From Bradyrhizobium sp. OK095 (lineage in GTDB: Bacteria > Pseudomonadota > Alphaproteobacteria > Rhizobiales > Xanthobacteraceae), in NCBI RefSeq assembly GCF_900109945.1, contig NZ_FOBX01000005.1:372001-436000 (forward strand): 64,000 bases of DNA, read 5' to 3'. Position 1 is the first letter of the stretch. Each line of letters begins with the position of its first letter. The position numbers and the translations under genes were made by a program. This document shows positions 48,694 to 55,605 of the stretch, piece after piece. A model generated the notes under the pieces. The model saw nothing but the letters and a program-made list of their open reading frames with translations, was not told where the DNA came from and searched no databases.

Positions 48694-49608
48694 ATGCCCT
48701 TCTTCAAGAACCTCTCCGCCTATGACGACCGATCGGCGCGCCTCGCCGGCATCGGGCTCATGGTGCTGTCGATCTTCATGTTCTCGTTCGGCGACGCCAT
48801 GGGCAAGTTCCTGGTCGGGACCTATTCGGTGGGGCAGCTGCTGTTCCTGCGTGGCAGCGCGGCGCTGCTTTTGCTGCTGCCGATCATCTGGCGGCATCGC
48901 CGGGATTTCGTTCACATGGAGAGGCCGTGGTTGCAGCTCGTCCGCGTCACGCTGTCGACGCTGGAGGTCGCCGCCTTCTTCATCGCAACGGTCTATCTGC
49001 CGCTCGCCGACGTCATCACCTATTATCTCGCCGGTCCCATCTTCGTCACCGCGATGTCGGCGATCTTCCTGCGCGAGAAGGTCGGCTGGCGGCGCTGGAC
49101 CGCGATCCTGATCGGCTTCTGCGGCGTCGTGATTGCGCTGCGGCCGTCGGCGCAGACCGTCAGCCTGCCGGCGCTGATCGCGCTCGGCGGCAGCCTGTCT
49201 TTTGCAACGTTGATGCTGATCACCCGCAGCCTGCGCAAGACGCCCGACATCGTGATGGCGTCCTCGCAATTCGTCGGCACGTTCCTGCTGGGTGCGGTGA
49301 TGTCGGCATTTCACTGGGTGCAGCCGACGCCGGGCAGTCTCGTGATCTTTGCGCTGGCGGGGGTCATTTCGGTGACCGCGCTGTTCTGCGTCAACCGCTC
49401 GCTCAAGCTGGCGCCGGCGAGTGTGGTTGTGCCCTACCAATATTCGATGATCGTCTGGGCCGTGATCTTCGGCTTCGTCGTGTTCGGCGATGTGCCTGAG
49501 GTCGCCACCATCGTCGGTGCCGCCATCATCATCGGCGCCGGGTTCTATATTTATCTGCGCGAGCGCGATCTCGGACGCCCGAGCGCCGAAGTGAATCCGC
49601 CAGCATAG
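48694..49608 (+). CDS. DMT (EamA) family transporter
   Basis: A 304-residue inner-membrane protein with about ten hydrophobic helices in two EamA repeats. The first begins LAGIGLMVLSIFMFSFGDAM; its end is marked by YLPLADVITYYLAGPIFVTA. The second is SFATLMLITRSLRKTPDIV through YQYSMIVWAVIFGFVVFGD. The substrate is unknown; family members export amino acids or other metabolites. The ATG at 48694 is chosen because the upstream frame is repeat sequence. It is followed at once by a strong hairpin. Confidence 0.9.
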   Translation: MPFFKNLSAYDDRSARLAGIGLMVLSIFMFSFGDAMGKFLVGTYSVGQLLFLRGSAALLLLLPIIWRHRRDFVHMERPWLQLVRVTLSTLEVAAFFIATVYLPLADVITYYLAGPIFVTAMSAIFLREKVGWRRWTAILIGFCGVVIALRPSAQTVSLPALIALGGSLSFATLMLITRSLRKTPDIVMASSQFVGTFLLGAVMSAFHWVQPTPGSLVIFALAGVISVTALFCVNRSLKLAPASVVVPYQYSMIVWAVIFGFVVFGDVPEVATIVGAAIIIGAGFYIYLRERDLGRPSAEVNPPA

Positions 49609-49635
49609 TGCTTACCCTCCGAGGGAGGGTAAGCA
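49609..49635 (+). terminator. terminator after the DMT transporter gene
   Basis: TGCTTACCCTCC and GGAGGGTAAGCA-type arms form a stem of about 12 bases with a very short loop directly at the stop codon. It lies between convergent genes and could serve both, though neither side has a long T run. Confidence 0.6.
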
Positions 49636-49643
49636 TCTGTGGC

Positions 49644-50237
49644 CTACCTCATCCTTCGCGCACTGCTCCAGCTCTTCAGCGACGACCACACGCCGCGCGA
49701 GAGGCGGAAGCAGTCGACCGGCGTGGACGAGCCTAGCGCCAGGAAGCGATGCAGCTGCACGCCGCTCCACTGGAAGCCGCACTTCTCCAGCACGTTGCGC
49801 GAGGCCGGATTAGTGACGCGTGCGCCCGCATAGAGGTGGTCGTCCTCGAGCTCCTCGAAGAAGAAGTCGATCGCGCCGCGCGCGGCTTCGGTGGCATAGC
49901 CCCGGCCCCAATGCTCGACGCCGAGCCAATAGCCGAGCTCGGCATTGCCGGGCGTGGAGCGATCGATGCCGACCATGCCGACCGGCCCGCTGTCGTGCTC
50001 GATCAGGAACGCGGTCTCGTTGCCGAGCACGGCCGTGCCGCGGATGAATGCGACGGCGTCGTCCTGCGAATAGGGAAAAGGGAGGCGGCGGGTGTTTTCC
50101 GCGACACGGCGGTCGTTGGCGAGGTGGGCAATGGTCTTGACGTCGGCGAGGGTCGGCCGCCGCAAGGTCAGTCGCTCGGTGGCGACGACGCTGGGTCTCG
50201 CCTCCTGCAAGGTCACGCTCGAGAAATCCTGCAACAT
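49644..50237 (-). CDS. GNAT family N-acetyltransferase (RimJ/RimL type)
   Basis: A 197-residue acetyltransferase. TERLTLRRPTLADVKTIAHL is the typical RimL-type start, with IDRSTPGNAELGYWLGVEHW, GRGYATEAARGAIDFFF (CoA site) and NPASRNVLEKCGFQWSG. The substrate is unknown. The ATG at 50237 has GGAG six bases upstream; a GTG at 50258 would add seven residues. It lies downstream of rpmA and may share its transcript, though a hairpin intervenes. Confidence 0.87.
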   Translation of the reverse strand: MLQDFSSVTLQEARPSVVATERLTLRRPTLADVKTIAHLANDRRVAENTRRLPFPYSQDDAVAFIRGTAVLGNETAFLIEHDSGPVGMVGIDRSTPGNAELGYWLGVEHWGRGYATEAARGAIDFFFEELEDDHLYAGARVTNPASRNVLEKCGFQWSGVQLHRFLALGSSTPVDCFRLSRGVWSSLKSWSSARRMR

Positions 50238-50287
50238 GTCCGGCTCCGTCAAAGTCACTAAGTGGAAAGTGAACTCGTCAAACGAAA

Positions 50288-50313
50288 GGGGAGGCCGGTT
50301 TCCCTGCCTCCCC
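50288..50313 (-). terminator. terminator after rpmA
   Basis: GGGGAGGC / GCCTCCCC eight-base stem with a ten-base loop, followed on the minus strand by TTTCGTTTG. A second inverted repeat (CCGCCGG / CCGGCGG, 50346-50372) lies closer to rpmA. Confidence 0.65.
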
Positions 50314-50393
50314 TGGAGCCTTCGATCTCTTTGATCTCAAGGACTCCGCCGGTTCGGTCTAGGACCCGGCGGACTCCAAATTTGATCCACCGT

Positions 50394-50663
50394 CTATTCA
50401 GCCGCCTCGGCGACCGGAAGTACCGAGATGAAGGTGCGGCCGTTGGCTTTGGCCTGGAACGTGACGCGACCCTCGATCTTGGCGAACAAAGTGTGGTCCG
50501 TGCCCATGCCGACATTAAGGCCGGGATGCCAGGTGGTGCCGCGCTGACGCGCAATGATGTTGCCGGGAATTACAACTTCCCCGCCGAACGCCTTGATACC
50601 GAGGCGCTTGCCTTTGGAATCGCGACCGTTGCGCGATGAACCGCCTGCTTTTTTGTGAGCCAT
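50394..50663 (-). CDS. rpmA: 50S ribosomal protein L27
   Basis: An 89-residue L27 with the N-terminal arm [20 protein letters not shown] that reaches the peptidyl-transferase centre, then [12 protein letters not shown] and [11 protein letters not shown]. No cleavable N-terminal extension of the Firmicutes type is present. It is 97 bases downstream of rplU, as in most bacteria. Confidence 0.97.
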
Positions 50664-50760
50664 GGCCCGTCTCCGAAACCTTACGTATTTCTAGATCAAT
50701 TCCTTGACGGAATCATTTCAAAATCTCTCACGCATCAATTCGTGATTGCGCGTGATCAAT

Positions 50761-51153
50761 TTATGCGGCGGCGTCTTCGGTCGTGGTCGCAGGCTTCGCG
50801 ACCTTCTCCCGCTTCGGACGCGGGCCCTTGGTGGGCTTGGCGCCGTCCGTCAGGATCTCGGAGATGCGGAGGACCGTGATCTCGTCGCGATAGCCGCGCT
50901 TGCGGCGCGAATTCTTGCGGCGGCGCTTCTTGAACGCGATGATCTTGGCGCCGCGCTTGTGGTCGAGCACCTCGACCGCAACGGACGCACCGGCGACCGT
51001 CGGCAGGCCCAGGATCGGCGTGTCGCCGCCGATCAACAGAACTTCGTTCAACTGTATGATCGAGCCGACTTCGCCTTCGATCTTGCCTACTTCGAGAACA
51101 TCATCCGGAACGACGCGGTACTGCCGGCCGCCGGTTTTGATGACTGCGAACAT
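50761..51153 (-). CDS. rplU: 50S ribosomal protein L21
   Basis: A 130-residue L21. The conserved MFAVIKTGGRQYRV, GSIIQLNEVLLIGG and KRRRKNSRRKRGYRDEIT are present, followed by an Ala/Lys/Thr-rich extension (EKVAKPATTTEDAAA) that makes it longer than the E. coli protein. The ATG at 51153 is the family start. The 5' region carries a nested hairpin that may be regulatory. Confidence 0.97.
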   Translation of the reverse strand: MFAVIKTGGRQYRVVPDDVLEVGKIEGEVGSIIQLNEVLLIGGDTPILGLPTVAGASVAVEVLDHKRGAKIIAFKKRRRKNSRRKRGYRDEITVLRISEILTDGAKPTKGPRPKREKVAKPATTTEDAAA

Positions 51154-51176
51154 CGTTTTTTCTCCGTGTTCAAATC

Positions 51177-51207
51177 CCGGCCTCGCGACGGGAATCGTCC
51201 GGGCCGG
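51177..51207 (-). promoter_or_regulatory. nested hairpin in the rplU leader
   Basis: On the minus strand CCGGCC pairs with GGCCGG and, inside it, GACG pairs with CGTC around a five-base loop. This sits 24-54 bases upstream of the rplU start codon, just after a run of five A. Ribosomal-protein leaders often fold to bind their product, but there is no known match I can name. Confidence 0.4.
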
Positions 51208-51485
51208 CTTTTTGTCAGTCGCTATGGGTTTATTGCGAGTCTTGTGCGGGCGGGATTTATCCCTTTGAAAACCCACGCAAAAACAAGCGGCGCGAGAAAC
51301 GCCCCGCGCCGGTTGCGGGACTTATAGCCGCCATCAGCCGGGAGTCAAGGAAAAGCGGGTGAAAAGGCCCGGATTTGAGAGATTTGGCCCGCTTCCACGG
51401 CCGGACTGGAATCTCGGCCCGCGCTGCAACCAACGGGTTCCCGCGCAGTTAGTCCGCCGGAACAGGTACGCGGGCAAGGGCACAA

Positions 51486-52628
51486 ATGGCAACAGACGAG
51501 CTGGTCAAGACCACGACGGGCATCGCCCATCACGGCGCCGAGCGGCTGCCGTCGGTGGACGTCGACAGTTTCAACATCGAGATCAAGGACGAGGACGGTT
51601 TTCTCGGCGACCGTGCCAGCAAGGGCGCGTTCCGAAAAATCCTCGACCGCTGGCGCAAGCCGGGGCGCAAATCGGGCGAGGACCCCTTTGGCAAGGAGCC
51701 CTCGGAGAGCATCAGCAAGAAGGTCCTCGACGAGATGCTGGTCGGCGATGATGTCGAGGCTTCCGCCGTGGTGCACAGCGCCATCGAGGAGTTCGCCCAG
51801 GAGCTTGCCTACGTCACGCGTCGTTTCCTCAAGACAAAAGCCTGGGCCAAGACCGAGCGCATCGTGGTTGGCGGCGGATTTCGCGATTCCCGGCTCGGCG
51901 AGATCGCGATCGCGCGCACCGACATCATCCTCAAGGCGGAGGACTTCAAGATCGATCTGGTGCCGATCCGCGCGCATCCGGATGAAGCCGGCCTGATCGG
52001 CGCGCTGCATCTGGCGCCGTCATGGATTTTCGAGGCACATGACGCGATTCTCGCGGTCGACATCGGCGGCACCAACATTCGCTGCGGCGTGGTCGAGACG
52101 CGCTGGAAGAAGGCGAAGGATCTGTCGAAGGCGGGCGTGTGGAAGTCCGAGCTATGGCGTCATGCCGATGATGAGCCAACGCGCGAAGGTGCGGTGAAGC
52201 GTCTCATCAAAATGCTGAAGGGACTGATCACGGACGCCGAGAAGGAAGGCTTCAAGATCGCGCCCTTCATCGGCATCGCCTGTCCCGGCGTCATCAACGC
52301 GGACGGCTCGATCGAGAAGGGCGCGCAAAACCTGCCGGGCAATTGGGAGAGCAGCAAGTTCAACCTGCCGGCGAGCCTGCTCGAGGGCATCCCCCAGATC
52401 GGCGAGCACGACACCGCAATCCTGATGCACAATGACGGCGTGGTTCAGGGCCTCTCCGAGGTGCCGTTCATGCAGGATGTCGACCGCTGGGGCGTGCTGA
52501 CCATCGGCACCGGGCTCGGCAATGCCCGCTTCACCAACCGCCGCAAGGAAGGCAACGGGAAAGACCGGGATTCTACTGAGAACGGCAAGGACAATAACAA
52601 GAAAAAGGCCAAGGCGGACAAGGAGTAA
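51486..52628 (+). CDS. ROK-family protein with permuted domain order
   Basis: A 380-residue protein with sugar-kinase (ROK/ASKHA) motifs in an unusual order. The phosphate-1 motif DIGGTNIR lies at residues 192-199 instead of the N-terminus. It is followed in normal order by ACPGV (265-269), NLPGNW (282-287), the ND catalytic Asp (D317) and IGTGLG (about 338-343). After that there is only a Lys/Asn/Glu-rich tail. The motifs that normally close a ROK protein, VVGGG (127-131, adenosine site) and DEAGLIGALHLA (from 166), instead come first, just before DIGGT. The first 80 residues are polar. The ROK zinc motif is not seen. It could be a permuted kinase or a sensor; the substrate is unknown. The ATG at 51486 follows a weak ribosome-binding site. 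Confidence 0.8.
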   Translation: MATDELVKTTTGIAHHGAERLPSVDVDSFNIEIKDEDGFLGDRASKGAFRKILDRWRKPGRKSGEDPFGKEPSESISKKVLDEMLVGDDVEASAVVHSAIEEFAQELAYVTRRFLKTKAWAKTERIVVGGGFRDSRLGEIAIARTDIILKAEDFKIDLVPIRAHPDEAGLIGALHLAPSWIFEAHDAILAVDIGGTNIRCGVVETRWKKAKDLSKAGVWKSELWRHADDEPTREGAVKRLIKMLKGLITDAEKEGFKIAPFIGIACPGVINADGSIEKGAQNLPGNWESSKFNLPASLLEGIPQIGEHDTAILMHNDGVVQGLSEVPFMQDVDRWGVLTIGTGLGNARFTNRRKEGNGKDRDSTENGKDNNKKKAKADKE

Positions 52629-53049
52629 CCTTGACTGGTTAGGTTAAGGACCGGTTTGCGTTGCGGCGCACGGGCCGCACGCTACGGTCGATCCGTCGCC
52701 TCACCTGGCCTGCGAAGCCGCCCTTCCTGGTCAGTTTTCAATGAGCGGCACGGGACCGCCAGTGTTTACCGCGTCTGGCGGTCCCACCTCGGGGGTTATC
52801 CCTGTGACCAGGTGATTCGGCCGCCAGCGGCCTGCCGGTCGCATCGCTTTGCGCCAAACAGACCGCGCCCAGCGCGCAAACGGCGCAAAGTCCCGCCGAA
52901 ATCCGCGATCGGCCGCGTCACAGCCGCAACATCCTCGTTCTCAAACGGAAAACCGGCCGGATTTTCGCCCCCTCAGCCTTGTCTGGCCCGCCATCCTCGC
53001 TTATTAACGCCTCCAACCACGGGGGCTCGCCCCCGATTTTTGGCGCCTT
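52629..53049 (+). other. structured intergenic region upstream of tRNA-Ser
   Basis: About 420 bases without a credible protein gene. A strong hairpin stands at 52752-52785 (GGGACCGCCAG / CTGGCGGTCCC, 11 perfect pairs, 12-base loop TGTTTACCGCGT), followed by CTCGGGGGTTATCCC and, at the end, a good intrinsic terminator (53021-53041). The region could encode a non-coding RNA on the plus strand ending at that terminator. It is not recognisable as RNase P RNA, tmRNA, SRP RNA or 6S RNA by the motifs I know. Confidence 0.4.
53021..53041 (+). terminator. intrinsic terminator upstream of tRNA-Ser
   Basis: CGGGGG / CCCCCG stem with a CTCG loop followed by ATTTTT. It ends eight bases before the tRNA. 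The nearest upstream plus-strand gene (ROK) stops almost 400 bases earlier. Confidence 0.8.
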
Positions 53050-53139
53050 GGAGAGGTGGCAGAGTGGTTGATTGTACCGCACTCGAAATGCGGCATAGGT
53101 GCAAGCCTATCGGGGGTTCGAATCCCTCCCTCTCCGCCA
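53050..53139 (+). tRNA. tRNA-Ser(CGA)
   Basis: A 90-base class II tRNA including the encoded CCA. The acceptor stem is GGAGAGG/CCTCTCC and the discriminator is G. The anticodon stem is CCGCA/TGCGG with loop CTCGAAA, so the anticodon is CGA (53084-53086), reading UCG. The long variable arm (ATAGG...CCTAT) is typical of serine tRNAs, and the T arm contains GGTTCGAATCCC. Type I restriction genes begin 230 bases downstream, a common insertion context. Confidence 0.97.
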
Positions 53140-53370
53140 AATCGTCCAATGACCTAGAGTTGGGCCTAACTCTGGCTTCGGACCAGCGGTTCTAGAGGAC
53201 TACCCGTCCGCGTAGCTTTCACCGCCCCCTCGGAATAGAGCCAAGTCTCTCTGCACTTGCAGAGCGCAGGGCTTTCCGTCTGAAGTTGTGTTGGCTGCGC
53301 GAGGAGGCAATTATACGAATCCTTCCGCCCCGCATCCCCTCACCGCTGATTCGTCGAAGGCTTTCTCCAA

Positions 53371-55605
53371 GTGAACGTTCAAATCCACAACGAGCTAAAA
53401 TCCGACATCTGGGATATCGCAAACCGCCTTCGAGGCCCATATCGCCCGCCGCAATACAGGCTGGTTATGTTGCCGATGGTCGTTCTTCGCCGACTTGATT
53501 GCGTCCTTGAGCCGACTAAGGACGCCGTGCTGAAGCAATATAAGAAGCTGACCGCACAGAAGATGCCCAAGAATGCGATGGAGAGGCTGCTTGGAAAGGC
53601 GGCGGATCCCACGCGCCAGCACCCACTCTACAACACTAGCCCTTTCACCTTTGCGAAGCTGCTTGGTGATGCCGAAAACATAGCGCCGAACCTCGTATCT
53701 TATATCAACGGCTTCTCACCGACCGCCCGAGCGATCTTCGAGAAGTTCAAGTTCAACGACCAGATCGAAAAGCTTGATTCCAGCAACAGGCTTTTCACTA
53801 TCGTCAAGGCGATGGCGGATGTCGATTTGCACCCCGACCGCATCGACAATCTGCAGATGGGGTACCTGTTCGAGCATCTGGTGATGCGATTCAACGAACA
53901 GGCGAACGAGGAGGCCGGAGACCACTTCACTCCGCGCGAGGTAATCCGCCTCATGGCGAACCTCGTCTATACTGGCGAGAAGGACGTTTACCGTCCGGGC
54001 ATATACCGGACGATCTATGACCCGGCGTGCGGCACCGGCGGCATGTTGTCGGAATCCGAAAAGTTCATTCTCAACCAGAACAGCCAGGCCAATCTCGCCC
54101 TCTTCGGGCAGGAATATAATGACGAGTCTTGGGCTATCTGCTGCTCCGACATGCTCATCAAGGACGAGGACACGAGCAGCATTGTGCTTGGCGACACGTT
54201 GGGCGACGGCAAGACCCACGACGGTTTTCAGGGCAAACAGTTTCACTTTCTCTTGGCCAACCCGCCGTTTGGGGTAGAGTGGAAGGATCAGCAAAAAAAT
54301 GTCGAAAAGGAATACAGCGAACTGGGCTTTTCTGGCCGCTTCGGCGCGGGGCTGCCCGCCATCAACGATGGCTCGCTGCTGTTCTTGCAGCACATGATTT
54401 CTAAAATGCACGCCTATAGGGAGGGGCATGAAGACGCGGTCGGCTCCAAGATTGCCATCGTCTTCAATGGCTCGCCGCTCTTCTCGGGCGACGCTGGATC
54501 GGGGCCATCGAACATTCGCCGCTGGATTATAGAAAACGATTGGCTAGATGCCATCGTCGCCCTGCCGGACCAGCTTTTTTACAACACGGGCATCTTCACC
54601 TATGTCTGGCTTGTGACCAACCGCAAGGTGCGCGATCGGCGCGGCAAGGTTCAGTTGATCGACGGTACGCGCTTCTTCGAGCGCATGAAGAAGAGCCTGA
54701 ACAACAAGCGCAACGAAATCACCGAAGGTCAGATTCGACAGTTGACGCGCATCTACGGTAATTACAGCGATGGCGAAACTGCCGAGGTGTCCATTGACGG
54801 CACTCGTGAAACGCGCGTCGTCTCCCGTATCTTCGAGAACCGGGAGTTCGGCTTTCTCAAGGCTACGGTGGAGCGCCCCCTGCGCATGAACTTTGAGGCG
54901 ACGCTCGAGCGCATCGTCAGATTAGACGATCAGGCCGCATTTGCTAATCTCGCCACCAGTAAAAAGCGCAAGAACGAGGCGGCGGCAATGGCGGAAATCG
55001 AGGAAGGCCGCAAGCTGCAAGTCGCCATCCGAGCCACGCTCGCCAAGCTGCAAGGCAAGGGTCGGTACATGGATCGCGAGGCATTCGAGTCGGACCTCGA
55101 CAATGTGGCGAACGGAGTCGGCATCAAGCTATCCGCAACGATCAAGAAGGCGATTTGCGCCGCCCTGGGTGAGCGCGATCCTAACGCTAAAATCTGCCGC
55201 GACAGTAAGGGTAGGCCTGAGCCGGACAGCGATCTGCGCGATACGGAGAACGTCCCCCTGCCTGAGACTTTCGAGATGCCGAAGGCGTTTCTAGATGCTG
55301 CGAGCAAGAAGGAGAATGCCGCGCACAACGGGGCGTCACTACCTATGTTCTTCGGCCCGGATAAGCCAAACAAGTACCTTGTCGAGGCTATGACCCCCGC
55401 GATCGACGACTACATGGCGCGTGAAGTCTTGCCCCATGTGCCCGATGCGTGGGTGGACTACGATAAGACCAAGGTAGGCTACGAAATCCCCATCAATCGC
55501 CACTTCTACGTCTACAAGCCGCCTCGTCCGTTGGGTGAGATCGAAACAGATATCACTGCGTTGGAAGGCGAGATTGCTGGGCTATTGAAAGGGTTGGTCG
55601 AATGA
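53371..55605 (+). CDS. hsdM: type I restriction-modification system, DNA methyltransferase subunit
   Basis: A 744-residue HsdM that methylates adenine in the target site as part of the HsdM2S trimer. The N-terminal HsdM domain (ELKSDIWDIANRLRGPYRPP) precedes the N6-methylase core. The SAM motif is YDPACGTGGMLSESEKFI and the catalytic motif is LLANPPFGVEW. A C-terminal extension (LGERDPNAKICRDSKGRPEP) makes it longer than E. coli HsdM. The start is a GTG without a strong ribosome-binding site. Base and codon use (more A/T at third positions) differ from the flanking genes, a sign of transfer. It overlaps hsdS by four bases. Confidence 0.95.
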   Translation: MNVQIHNELKSDIWDIANRLRGPYRPPQYRLVMLPMVVLRRLDCVLEPTKDAVLKQYKKLTAQKMPKNAMERLLGKAADPTRQHPLYNTSPFTFAKLLGDAENIAPNLVSYINGFSPTARAIFEKFKFNDQIEKLDSSNRLFTIVKAMADVDLHPDRIDNLQMGYLFEHLVMRFNEQANEEAGDHFTPREVIRLMANLVYTGEKDVYRPGIYRTIYDPACGTGGMLSESEKFILNQNSQANLALFGQEYNDESWAICCSDMLIKDEDTSSIVLGDTLGDGKTHDGFQGKQFHFLLANPPFGVEWKDQQKNVEKEYSELGFSGRFGAGLPAINDGSLLFLQHMISKMHAYREGHEDAVGSKIAIVFNGSPLFSGDAGSGPSNIRRWIIENDWLDAIVALPDQLFYNTGIFTYVWLVTNRKVRDRRGKVQLIDGTRFFERMKKSLNNKRNEITEGQIRQLTRIYGNYSDGETAEVSIDGTRETRVVSRIFENREFGFLKATVERPLRMNFEATLERIVRLDDQAAFANLATSKKRKNEAAAMAEIEEGRKLQVAIRATLAKLQGKGRYMDREAFESDLDNVANGVGIKLSATIKKAICAALGERDPNAKICRDSKGRPEPDSDLRDTENVPLPETFEMPKAFLDAASKKENAAHNGASLPMFFGPDKPNKYLVEAMTPAIDDYMAREVLPHVPDAWVDYDKTKVGYEIPINRHFYVYKPPRPLGEIETDITALEGEIAGLLKGLVE

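Follow-up and report, generated by a model that had tools for sequence, protein, structure and literature searches.

The window, i.e. the whole stretch of DNA analysed here, comprises 64,000 nt of Bradyrhizobium sp. OK095 (GCF_900109945.1, NZ_FOBX01000005.1, positions 372,001-436,000, forward strand). It harbours a gene for a ROK-like protein of 380 aa, which we call cpROK (circularly permuted ROK-like protein), next to a divergently oriented rplU gene. A sequence-only reading of this DNA had assigned positions to the ROK motifs of the ORF 51486-52628, and translation confirmed all of them: from the N- to the C-terminus we find VVGGG (127-131), DEAGLIGALHLA (from 166), DIGGTNIR (from 192), ACPGV (from 265), NLPGNW (from 282), HND (315-317) and IGTGLG (340-345). 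After IGTGLG the protein ends in a low-complexity tail rich in Lys, Asp and Asn. The features and the evidence for each are as follows, where rows are those of the aligned family members.

50761..51276, - strand: rplU (L21), divergent neighbour; L21 recognised by eye from the sequence
51486..52628, + strand: cpROK coding sequence, 380 aa; family HMM covers 5-351 of 353, dN/dS 0.13-0.20 in five pairs
51531..51533, + strand: His16, close to the N-terminal end created by the rearrangement; 42 of 43 aligned members have H here and one row has a gap; unproven candidate for the histidine of ROK ExGH
51531..52019, + strand: residues 16-178, equivalent of the canonical ROK C-terminal half (about ExGH to closing helix); hhalign columns 1-175 (residues 8-182) to NanK 148-291, residues 87-178 to ROK HMM 220-304, half-model VIA matches with Z below 8
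51870..51878, + strand: GGG 129-131, adenosine-site motif; 43 of 43 rows
51981..52004, + strand: DEAGLIGA 166-173, closing helix of canonical ROK; D166 and G172 in 43 of 43 rows
52020..52046, + strand: residues 179-187, new join of the old C-terminal helix to the old N-terminal strand; the rotation scan gives its highest scores (117.9-118.9) with cuts after 183-188, the maximum being after 187
52047..52541, + strand: residues 188-352, equivalent of the canonical ROK N-terminal half; Pfam ROK 189-351 to 2-141 of 294, 29.1 bits, cut-off 22.9; hhalign E 3.8e-14
52059..52076, + strand: DIGGTN 192-197, PHOSPHATE-1 loop; D192, G194, G195 and N197 in 43 of 43 rows
52281..52289, + strand: CPG 266-268; P267 and G268 in 43 of 43 rows
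52329..52346, + strand: NLPGNW 282-287, which we take by homology to be the sugar-site loop; N282 and W287 in 43 of 43 rows
52428..52436, + strand: HND 315-317, with D317 as putative catalytic base; 43 of 43 rows
52506..52520, + strand: GTGLG 341-345, PHOSPHATE-2 loop; positions 341, 342, 343 and 345 in 42 of 43 rows, gap in one row
52542..52625, + strand: low-complexity charged C-terminal tail, residues 353-380; from sequence and family alignment

Order of the ROK halves

The linear ROK order of DxGGT, GTGxG, GGG and closing helix is not met by cpROK, in which the halves are reversed. An HMM built from 39 canonical ROKs (E. coli NanK and 38 genome loci similar to NanK over more than 230 residues) was run on the six-frame translation of 49500-55500. 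It matched residues 87-178 of cpROK with its positions 220-304 of 306 (i-E 0.0034) and residues 185-347 with its positions 5-144 (i-E 5.4e-7). Besides the cpROK ORF no ROK piece rises above noise in this region (other rows E 0.57 and 0.7), hence there is no separate C-terminal ROK piece nearby. A second GGG/AGLIGA segment after residue 343, named beforehand as an observation which would refute a permutation, was looked for downstream and is absent. The Pfam ROK profile (PF00480) reaches its gathering score (29.1 bits vs 22.9) with the best stretch at residues 189-351 (2-141 of 294), and the C-terminal positions 215-286 of the 288 positions of NCBIfam NanK match residues 104-177 (E 0.0071).

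Comparing the cpROK family profile (43 diverse members, column 1 being residue 8) with the 39 canonical ROKs by hhalign gives two alignments in native order: columns 179-346 pair with NanK 1-142 at E 3.8e-14, while NanK 148-291 pairs with columns 1-175 at E 2.4e-8. When the halves are exchanged, a single alignment runs from 1-342 to 2-291 over 283 columns (E 4e-21). In a rotation scan, done in steps of ten and in single steps near the maximum, the native order scores 81.6, cuts after residues 183-188 score 117.9-118.9, and the best start is residue 188 (118.9); starts at 178 and 198 give 116.1 and 88.0. Shuffling the columns of the N-half before joining it to the C-half yields 80.0-81.9 in five out of five controls, and fully column-shuffled family profiles reach 11-21 (five out of five). 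Because of the distance of these last values from the 81.6 of the native and the 118.9 of the rotated profile, the match of cpROK to ROK is not due to chance. When the canonical set is split and its two halves are compared, the unrotated order gives the highest score out of six rotations.

A colinear full-length alignment that appears only after rotation is thus obtained for cpROK, though not with all subgroups and single sequences. Against fructokinase/Mak-like ROKs (68.1 vs 44.5) and NanK-like ROKs (67.1 vs 46.3) the rearranged profile runs across the junction and scores higher. Against glcK-like ROKs it spans the junction without a gain (103.0 vs 104.1 unrotated), it does not align across the junction with the pooled profile of PPGK-like ROKs, and with two actinobacterial PPGKs alone it crosses by 29 columns (56.4 vs 50.8). 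Nothing significant was found against three rows of NagC-like ROKs. Of three single rearranged members one was aligned by Pfam across the junction (L091, 3-337 to 2-292, 39.6 vs 36.5 bits), and in a comparison of the rearranged profile with PDB sequences no best stretch was full length. A regular expression for the canonical order fitted only 21 of the 39 canonical ROK rows and was not used. With the single cpROK sequence as query, phmmer ranks chains of free serine kinase highest in the PDB (residues 12-74, E 0.007, with an i-E of 0.31 for the best stretch); we took these as chance matches.

Structure models add less. AlphaFold2 gave low confidence both for the whole protein (pLDDT 57.9, pTM 0.54) and for the N-half alone (pLDDT 59.1, pTM 0.61), probably because only close relatives served as alignment rows; at pLDDT values of 58-59 the models do not show how the halves pack against each other. 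The best VIA match of the whole model is the ManNAc kinase of human GNE, whose chain residues 405-541 align with model residues 184-342 (107 aligned residues, Z 7.2, rmsd 2.6). Its lead is small, since the scores of MreB, actin-like and Hsp70 chains (Z 6.0-6.5), which align sequentially over most of the model, are within or near the tie range of the tool. The first Foldseek match of the whole model is 2yhy (E 1.4e-5), with TM-scores of about 0.2. For the N-half model the best 20 VIA rows are, as we take them, all ASKHA proteins, and several lie on the C-terminal half of the target (6q26 132-276 of 286, 2qm1 140-303 of 325, 3bp8 221-377 of 381, 4nb4 98-261 of 265). With Z below 8 these matches support a C-terminal-half placement and do not prove it. 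The position of residues 120-180 in the C-terminal ROK subdomain, also named beforehand as a test, could thus be tested only weakly on these low-confidence models.

ASKHA proteins have an internal pseudo-twofold symmetry, both halves sharing the core fold, and this adds ambiguity to the placement of the N-half. One could therefore ask whether there is no permutation at all, the N-half being an unrelated or second RNase H-like domain whose likeness to the ROK C-half stems from convergence or from this symmetry. Such a view can draw on those N-half VIA matches that span both target halves (6q27 73-284, 2e2n 10-273), on the whole model being sequential to MreB and Hsp70 nearly as well as partially aligned to ROK, and on Foldseek, which found nothing significant for the N-half model (best E 0.79, first ASKHA row E 2.8). 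We nevertheless consider it very improbable: the N-half profile matches the ROK C-half alone (NanK 148-291, E 3.9e-8, next alternative with a probability of 0.1%), it supplies in register the GGG and closing-helix motifs that would otherwise be missing, and the best rotation leaves neither an overlap nor a missing block. That the motif order is merely an artefact, caused by a frameshift, by ROK fragments lying side by side or by two genes joined during assembly, can be rejected with near certainty. Nothing in favour of this view was found beyond the halves matching separate parts of one profile. The ORF is uninterrupted, and it is colinear in 127 of the 131 loci, which stem from many assemblies. 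Of the 207 plasmid records that match, 204 cover at least 80% of the query in one place, dN/dS is 0.13-0.20 in five pairs, and no other ROK fragments lie in 49500-55500.

The circular permutation that the sequence-only reading had suspected is supported by the order-swapped profile alignments, by the rotation peak at the predicted junction and by the NanK C-terminal match, and the fold comparison of the halves agrees weakly. On sequence grounds we are highly confident that cpROK is a natural circular permutant of a ROK kinase. What was the C-terminal half in the ancestor, beginning at about the ExGH sugar/zinc region and closing with the AGLIGA helix, now precedes the N-terminal half, which runs from DIGGT to GTGxG, and a short linker joins the old ends. 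The new termini had been expected next to the ATP site; this needs refinement, as they correspond to the interval from NanK 142 to 148, which directly follows PHOSPHATE-2 (GTGxG) and directly precedes the ExGH sugar/zinc region, so that part of the sugar-site region has also been moved to the front.

Conservation, distribution and ancestry

The motif order is conserved among homologues. GGG, DEAGLIG, DIGGTN, HND and GTGLGN follow each other in this order in 127 of the 131 cpROK loci, two of the 131 (L081 and L112) being the window's own gene. In L059 and L088 the DEAGLIG pattern is not matched, in L118 and L121 GTGLGN is not found (in L121 DIGGTN is missing too), and the latter two matches contain stop codons; these four exceptions are pattern misses or broken frames. 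Towards five Bradyrhizobium homologues dN/dS of the whole gene is 0.13-0.20 and that of the N-half alone 0.14-0.19, the two halves being similar. cpROK is a conserved protein under purifying selection. From set A1 we took in 50 of 80 loci, from A5 74 of 77 recognised loci and from A6 nine of twelve printed sequences, while A2 consists of 38 of 42 non-redundant loci, with L088, L102, L118 and L121 left out.

In the scan of contigs of 228 relatives the best 80 loci are nearly all labelled Bradyrhizobium and show 82-94% identity in the best segment. One contig (L004) is labelled Frankia sp. RB7; as its cpROK copy is 88% identical, this is probably mislabelled Bradyrhizobium-like DNA. Counting the own genome each time, matches occur in 41 of 297 genomes of the order (three of them, G208, G227 and G230, are fragments or weak), in 16 of 385 genomes of the class and in 32 of 398 genomes of the phylum, where ten of the 32 are weak matches to canonical ROKs. 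Full-length members outside the family of the window are 47-64% identical. Among 72,556 plasmid records 207 match cpROK, and in 204 of them a single place accounts for at least 80% of the query; they belong mostly to Rhizobium (111) and Sinorhizobium (79), and one Roseateles record lies, going by its name, presumably outside the Alphaproteobacteria. In the rows listed the plasmid genes are annotated as 'ROK family protein', 'glucokinase' or 'hypothetical protein'. The viral scans confirmed no viral relatives. cpROK is patchily distributed across the Alphaproteobacteria and a few other Pseudomonadota and is found on many plasmids.

In a phylogenetic tree with 18 of 42 usable cpROK rows the cpROK proteins form one clade (support 100/100, branch length 2.38), which is separated from the fructokinase/Mak/NagK group at 100/100. 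Since its grouping with glcK-like and NagC-like ROKs has a support of only 84/62, the sister group is unresolved. A re-rooted drawing of the tree carried a shifted label (82/32), and this value was not used. Descent from PPGK, which the missing zinc motif and an NDAxxQGL resemblance suggested, is not supported by the tree. The textbook route to a circular permutation is a tandem duplication or fusion followed by trimming of the outer halves. By analogy, cpROK may have originated from one such event; no duplication intermediate was seen, and no systematic search for one was made.

Natural circular permutants of multi-lobed enzymes are rare. Known natural cases such as saposin/swaposin and permuted GTPases represent the same kind of rearrangement in a different fold. 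To the best of our knowledge no natural circular permutant has been known among ROK kinases, and among the matches listed from those parts of the full-text PMC literature that were available, no description of a permuted ROK or ASKHA kinase was found. Present in 17 coded bacterial families, this stable clade of permuted proteins represents a natural experiment on whether the order of the chain matters for folding, for closing of the hinge and for catalysis in proteins of the actin/hexokinase fold.

Active site and predicted activity

The ROK motifs DxGGT, PG, ND, GTGxG and GGG are all present in cpROK and their key residues are invariant (GTGxG gapped in one of 43 rows). D192, G194, G195, N197, R199, N282, N316, D317, G129-131, D166 and G172 are conserved in 43 of 43 aligned rows, G341, T342, G343 and G345 in 42 with a gap in the remaining one, and H16, G41 and D42 in 42 with one gap each. 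The zinc motif CxCGxxGC(xE) was found in none of the 131 cpROK loci, compared to 39 of 39 canonical ROKs, which were chosen by similarity to NanK. However, this motif is not universal in ROKs, as none of ten PPGK-like ROKs carries it, and a methanotroph polyphosphate glucokinase without the ROK zinc motif has been described, such polyphosphate glucokinases being active (PMC6406325). His16 is conserved but lies two positions before the histidine of the ROK ExGH in the hhalign output, and 16 of the 131 cpROK loci contain a loose ExxGH pattern at some position. H16 is a candidate replacement for the ExGH histidine, which is not shown.

Because the ATP-site and ND residues are invariant and the zinc motif is absent, as in the published polyphosphate glucokinase, a competent ATP site is likely and the sugar pocket is rebuilt. 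Both halves would fold like those of a canonical ROK, GGG, DIGGTN and GTGLG together making up a single nucleotide cleft and D317 being the inferred base. Although its activity is untested, we infer that cpROK is probably an active kinase.

With the known ROK kinases (PF00480; NanK, glucokinase, fructokinase, BglK) cpROK shares the ATP-site motifs and the ND motif, and both of its halves align to the family profile. It differs by the reversed halves, the lack of CxCGxxGC (0 of 131 vs 39 of 39), the rebuilt ExGH region and a size of about 340-390 aa with longer inserts in the aligned members. On the evidence of its sequence, cpROK is a circularly permuted ROK variant which is ROK-kinase-like and fails the linear-order and zinc-motif tests. 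PPGK (NF045942; 1woq) is likewise of ROK type without the zinc motif (0 of 10), and its NDAxxQGL stretch resembles the L202/L203 group; unlike cpROK it has the canonical order, cpROK misses the NCBIfam cut-off, and the tree does not group the two. On plasmids of Deinococcus, Pantoea and Shinella (L230, L232, L235), PPGK-like ROK genes with the canonical order and without the zinc motif were also observed immediately downstream of zwf.

What such a kinase would act on is less clear. It could phosphorylate a substrate other than glucose, or use polyphosphate instead of ATP, given that the ExGH/zinc region of the sugar site is rebuilt and that the best ROK match of the single sequence in the PDB is 1woq, a polyphosphate/ATP glucomannokinase (E 0.024). 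As cpROK is not placed with PPGK in the tree and scores 23.9 with the NCBIfam PPGK profile, whose cut-off is 250, we regard this as unlikely, although it deserves to be kept in mind. We find it harder still to believe that cpROK is permuted but catalytically dead, serving as a sensor or regulator like the ROK repressors. The lost zinc motif, the lack of a conserved sugar operon in the regions viewed together with stress-associated neighbours, and a separate glucokinase (PF02685, at C17) in the same genome, which we take to be an ASKHA glucokinase of the E. coli Glk type and which belongs to a different family from cpROK, would all fit a regulator. Against this stand D192, G194, G195, N197, N316, D317 and G129-131, conserved without exception, the near-complete conservation of G341, T342, G343 and G345 (42 of 43), and the fact that no DNA-binding family was matched in Pfam. 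The loss of the zinc motif also weighs less, as PPGK-like ROKs lack it too (0 of 10) and polyphosphate glucokinases without it are active (PMC6406325).

Genetic neighbourhood and promoters

In Bradyrhizobium-type loci rplU was found in 79 of 80 cases, and in 77 of 80 it is divergent from cpROK within 1.5 kb. It was not found in 20 wide regions from other genera (tblastn, E 1e-10). Outside the Bradyrhizobium-type loci the neighbours are varied, with stress-like surroundings. Among 119 neighbours from these 20 wide regions (up to three on each side) the Pfam families seen most often include response regulators (5), histidine-kinase ATPases (4), DUF892 (3), trehalose phosphatase (3), GT20 (2) and HWE kinases (2). 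No conserved sugar operon surrounds cpROK in the regions viewed. A homologue of otsB, a gene of trehalose synthesis, occurs in four of the 20 wide regions and lies directly beside cpROK in three of seven annotated plasmid copies, i.e. those viewed with features out of the 207 matching records. On pSymB of S. meliloti cpROK adjoins an osmoprotectant (NAGGN) gene.

In order to look for control by the general stress response we scanned about 350 bp upstream for the EcfG promoter, whose consensus is given as GGAAC-N16-CGTT in PMC3892343. Spacers of N15-18 were allowed, the background is 1.25% per 360 bp, and distances refer to the point where the family alignment begins and not to a mapped start codon. 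The diverse set has 50 rows including the window's own gene (L112), leaving 49, nine of which are same-genus loci without the motif. An EcfG-type promoter precedes cpROK in 19 of these 49 loci, which come from ten of 17 coded families, or in 19 of 40 once the nine same-genus loci are removed. It lies far upstream in L091 (-331) and L118 (-230). In one coded family (f20: L093, L094, L097-L102) all eight loci have it, and so do six of the seven plasmid copies viewed, in which it lies between -61 and -78; one of these six is from a Bradyrhizobium plasmid. None of five cpROK loci of two families outside the class showed it, and EcfG is not expected there (PMC3892343). With greedy ORF picking the motif was found before three of eleven cpROK genes compared to four of 223 other genes; the figures reported above are not from this procedure, which recovered cpROK in only 11 of 20 loci.

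For the window copy an EcfG promoter is ruled out, as the motif is absent upstream of it; it is also absent from all 80 best Bradyrhizobium-type loci and from the nine further same-genus loci. Lying beside rplU without an EcfG motif, the Bradyrhizobium chromosomal cpROK is controlled differently.

In B. diazoefficiens trehalose synthesis is EcfG-controlled and OtsA uses glucose-6-phosphate, and during infection trehalose synthesis is what the general stress response must supply (PMC8092242). A stress-linked, ATP-dependent hexokinase feeding OtsA is for this reason the simplest reading, albeit an inference, and the genome encodes the PF02685 glucokinase as well. From this context cpROK would phosphorylate a hexose, most simply glucose; in many hosts it would act within the EcfG-controlled general stress response, and in some, encoded beside trehalose synthesis, it may supply glucose-6-phosphate for OtsA. 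A role of the family in stress and trehalose synthesis is put forward tentatively, with the balance of evidence just short of favouring it. The statement as a whole, that cpROK is a ROK permutant and a hexose kinase with a stress link in many hosts, has a good probability as long as no specific sugar is named; substrate and activity are untested and inferred. A wider scenario is possible but speculative: a single ancient permutation in the ASKHA fold gave rise to a new kinase clade with free ends beside the active site and without the zinc site, which was spread by plasmids through the Alphaproteobacteria and beyond and became stress-regulated and trehalose-linked, and whose relocated ends may give new regulation or specificity. 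cpROK in any case points to an uncharacterised putative kinase, which in many alphaproteobacterial replicons looks linked to the stress response and is sometimes encoded beside trehalose synthesis genes.

On the other side of cpROK in the window a tRNA-Ser(CGA) gene is located downstream (53050-53139), shortly followed by an ORF (53371-55605) which by eye resembles the methylase subunit HsdM of type I restriction-modification systems (FTPREV and NPPFG motifs). The two could possibly represent an island inserted at the tRNA gene.
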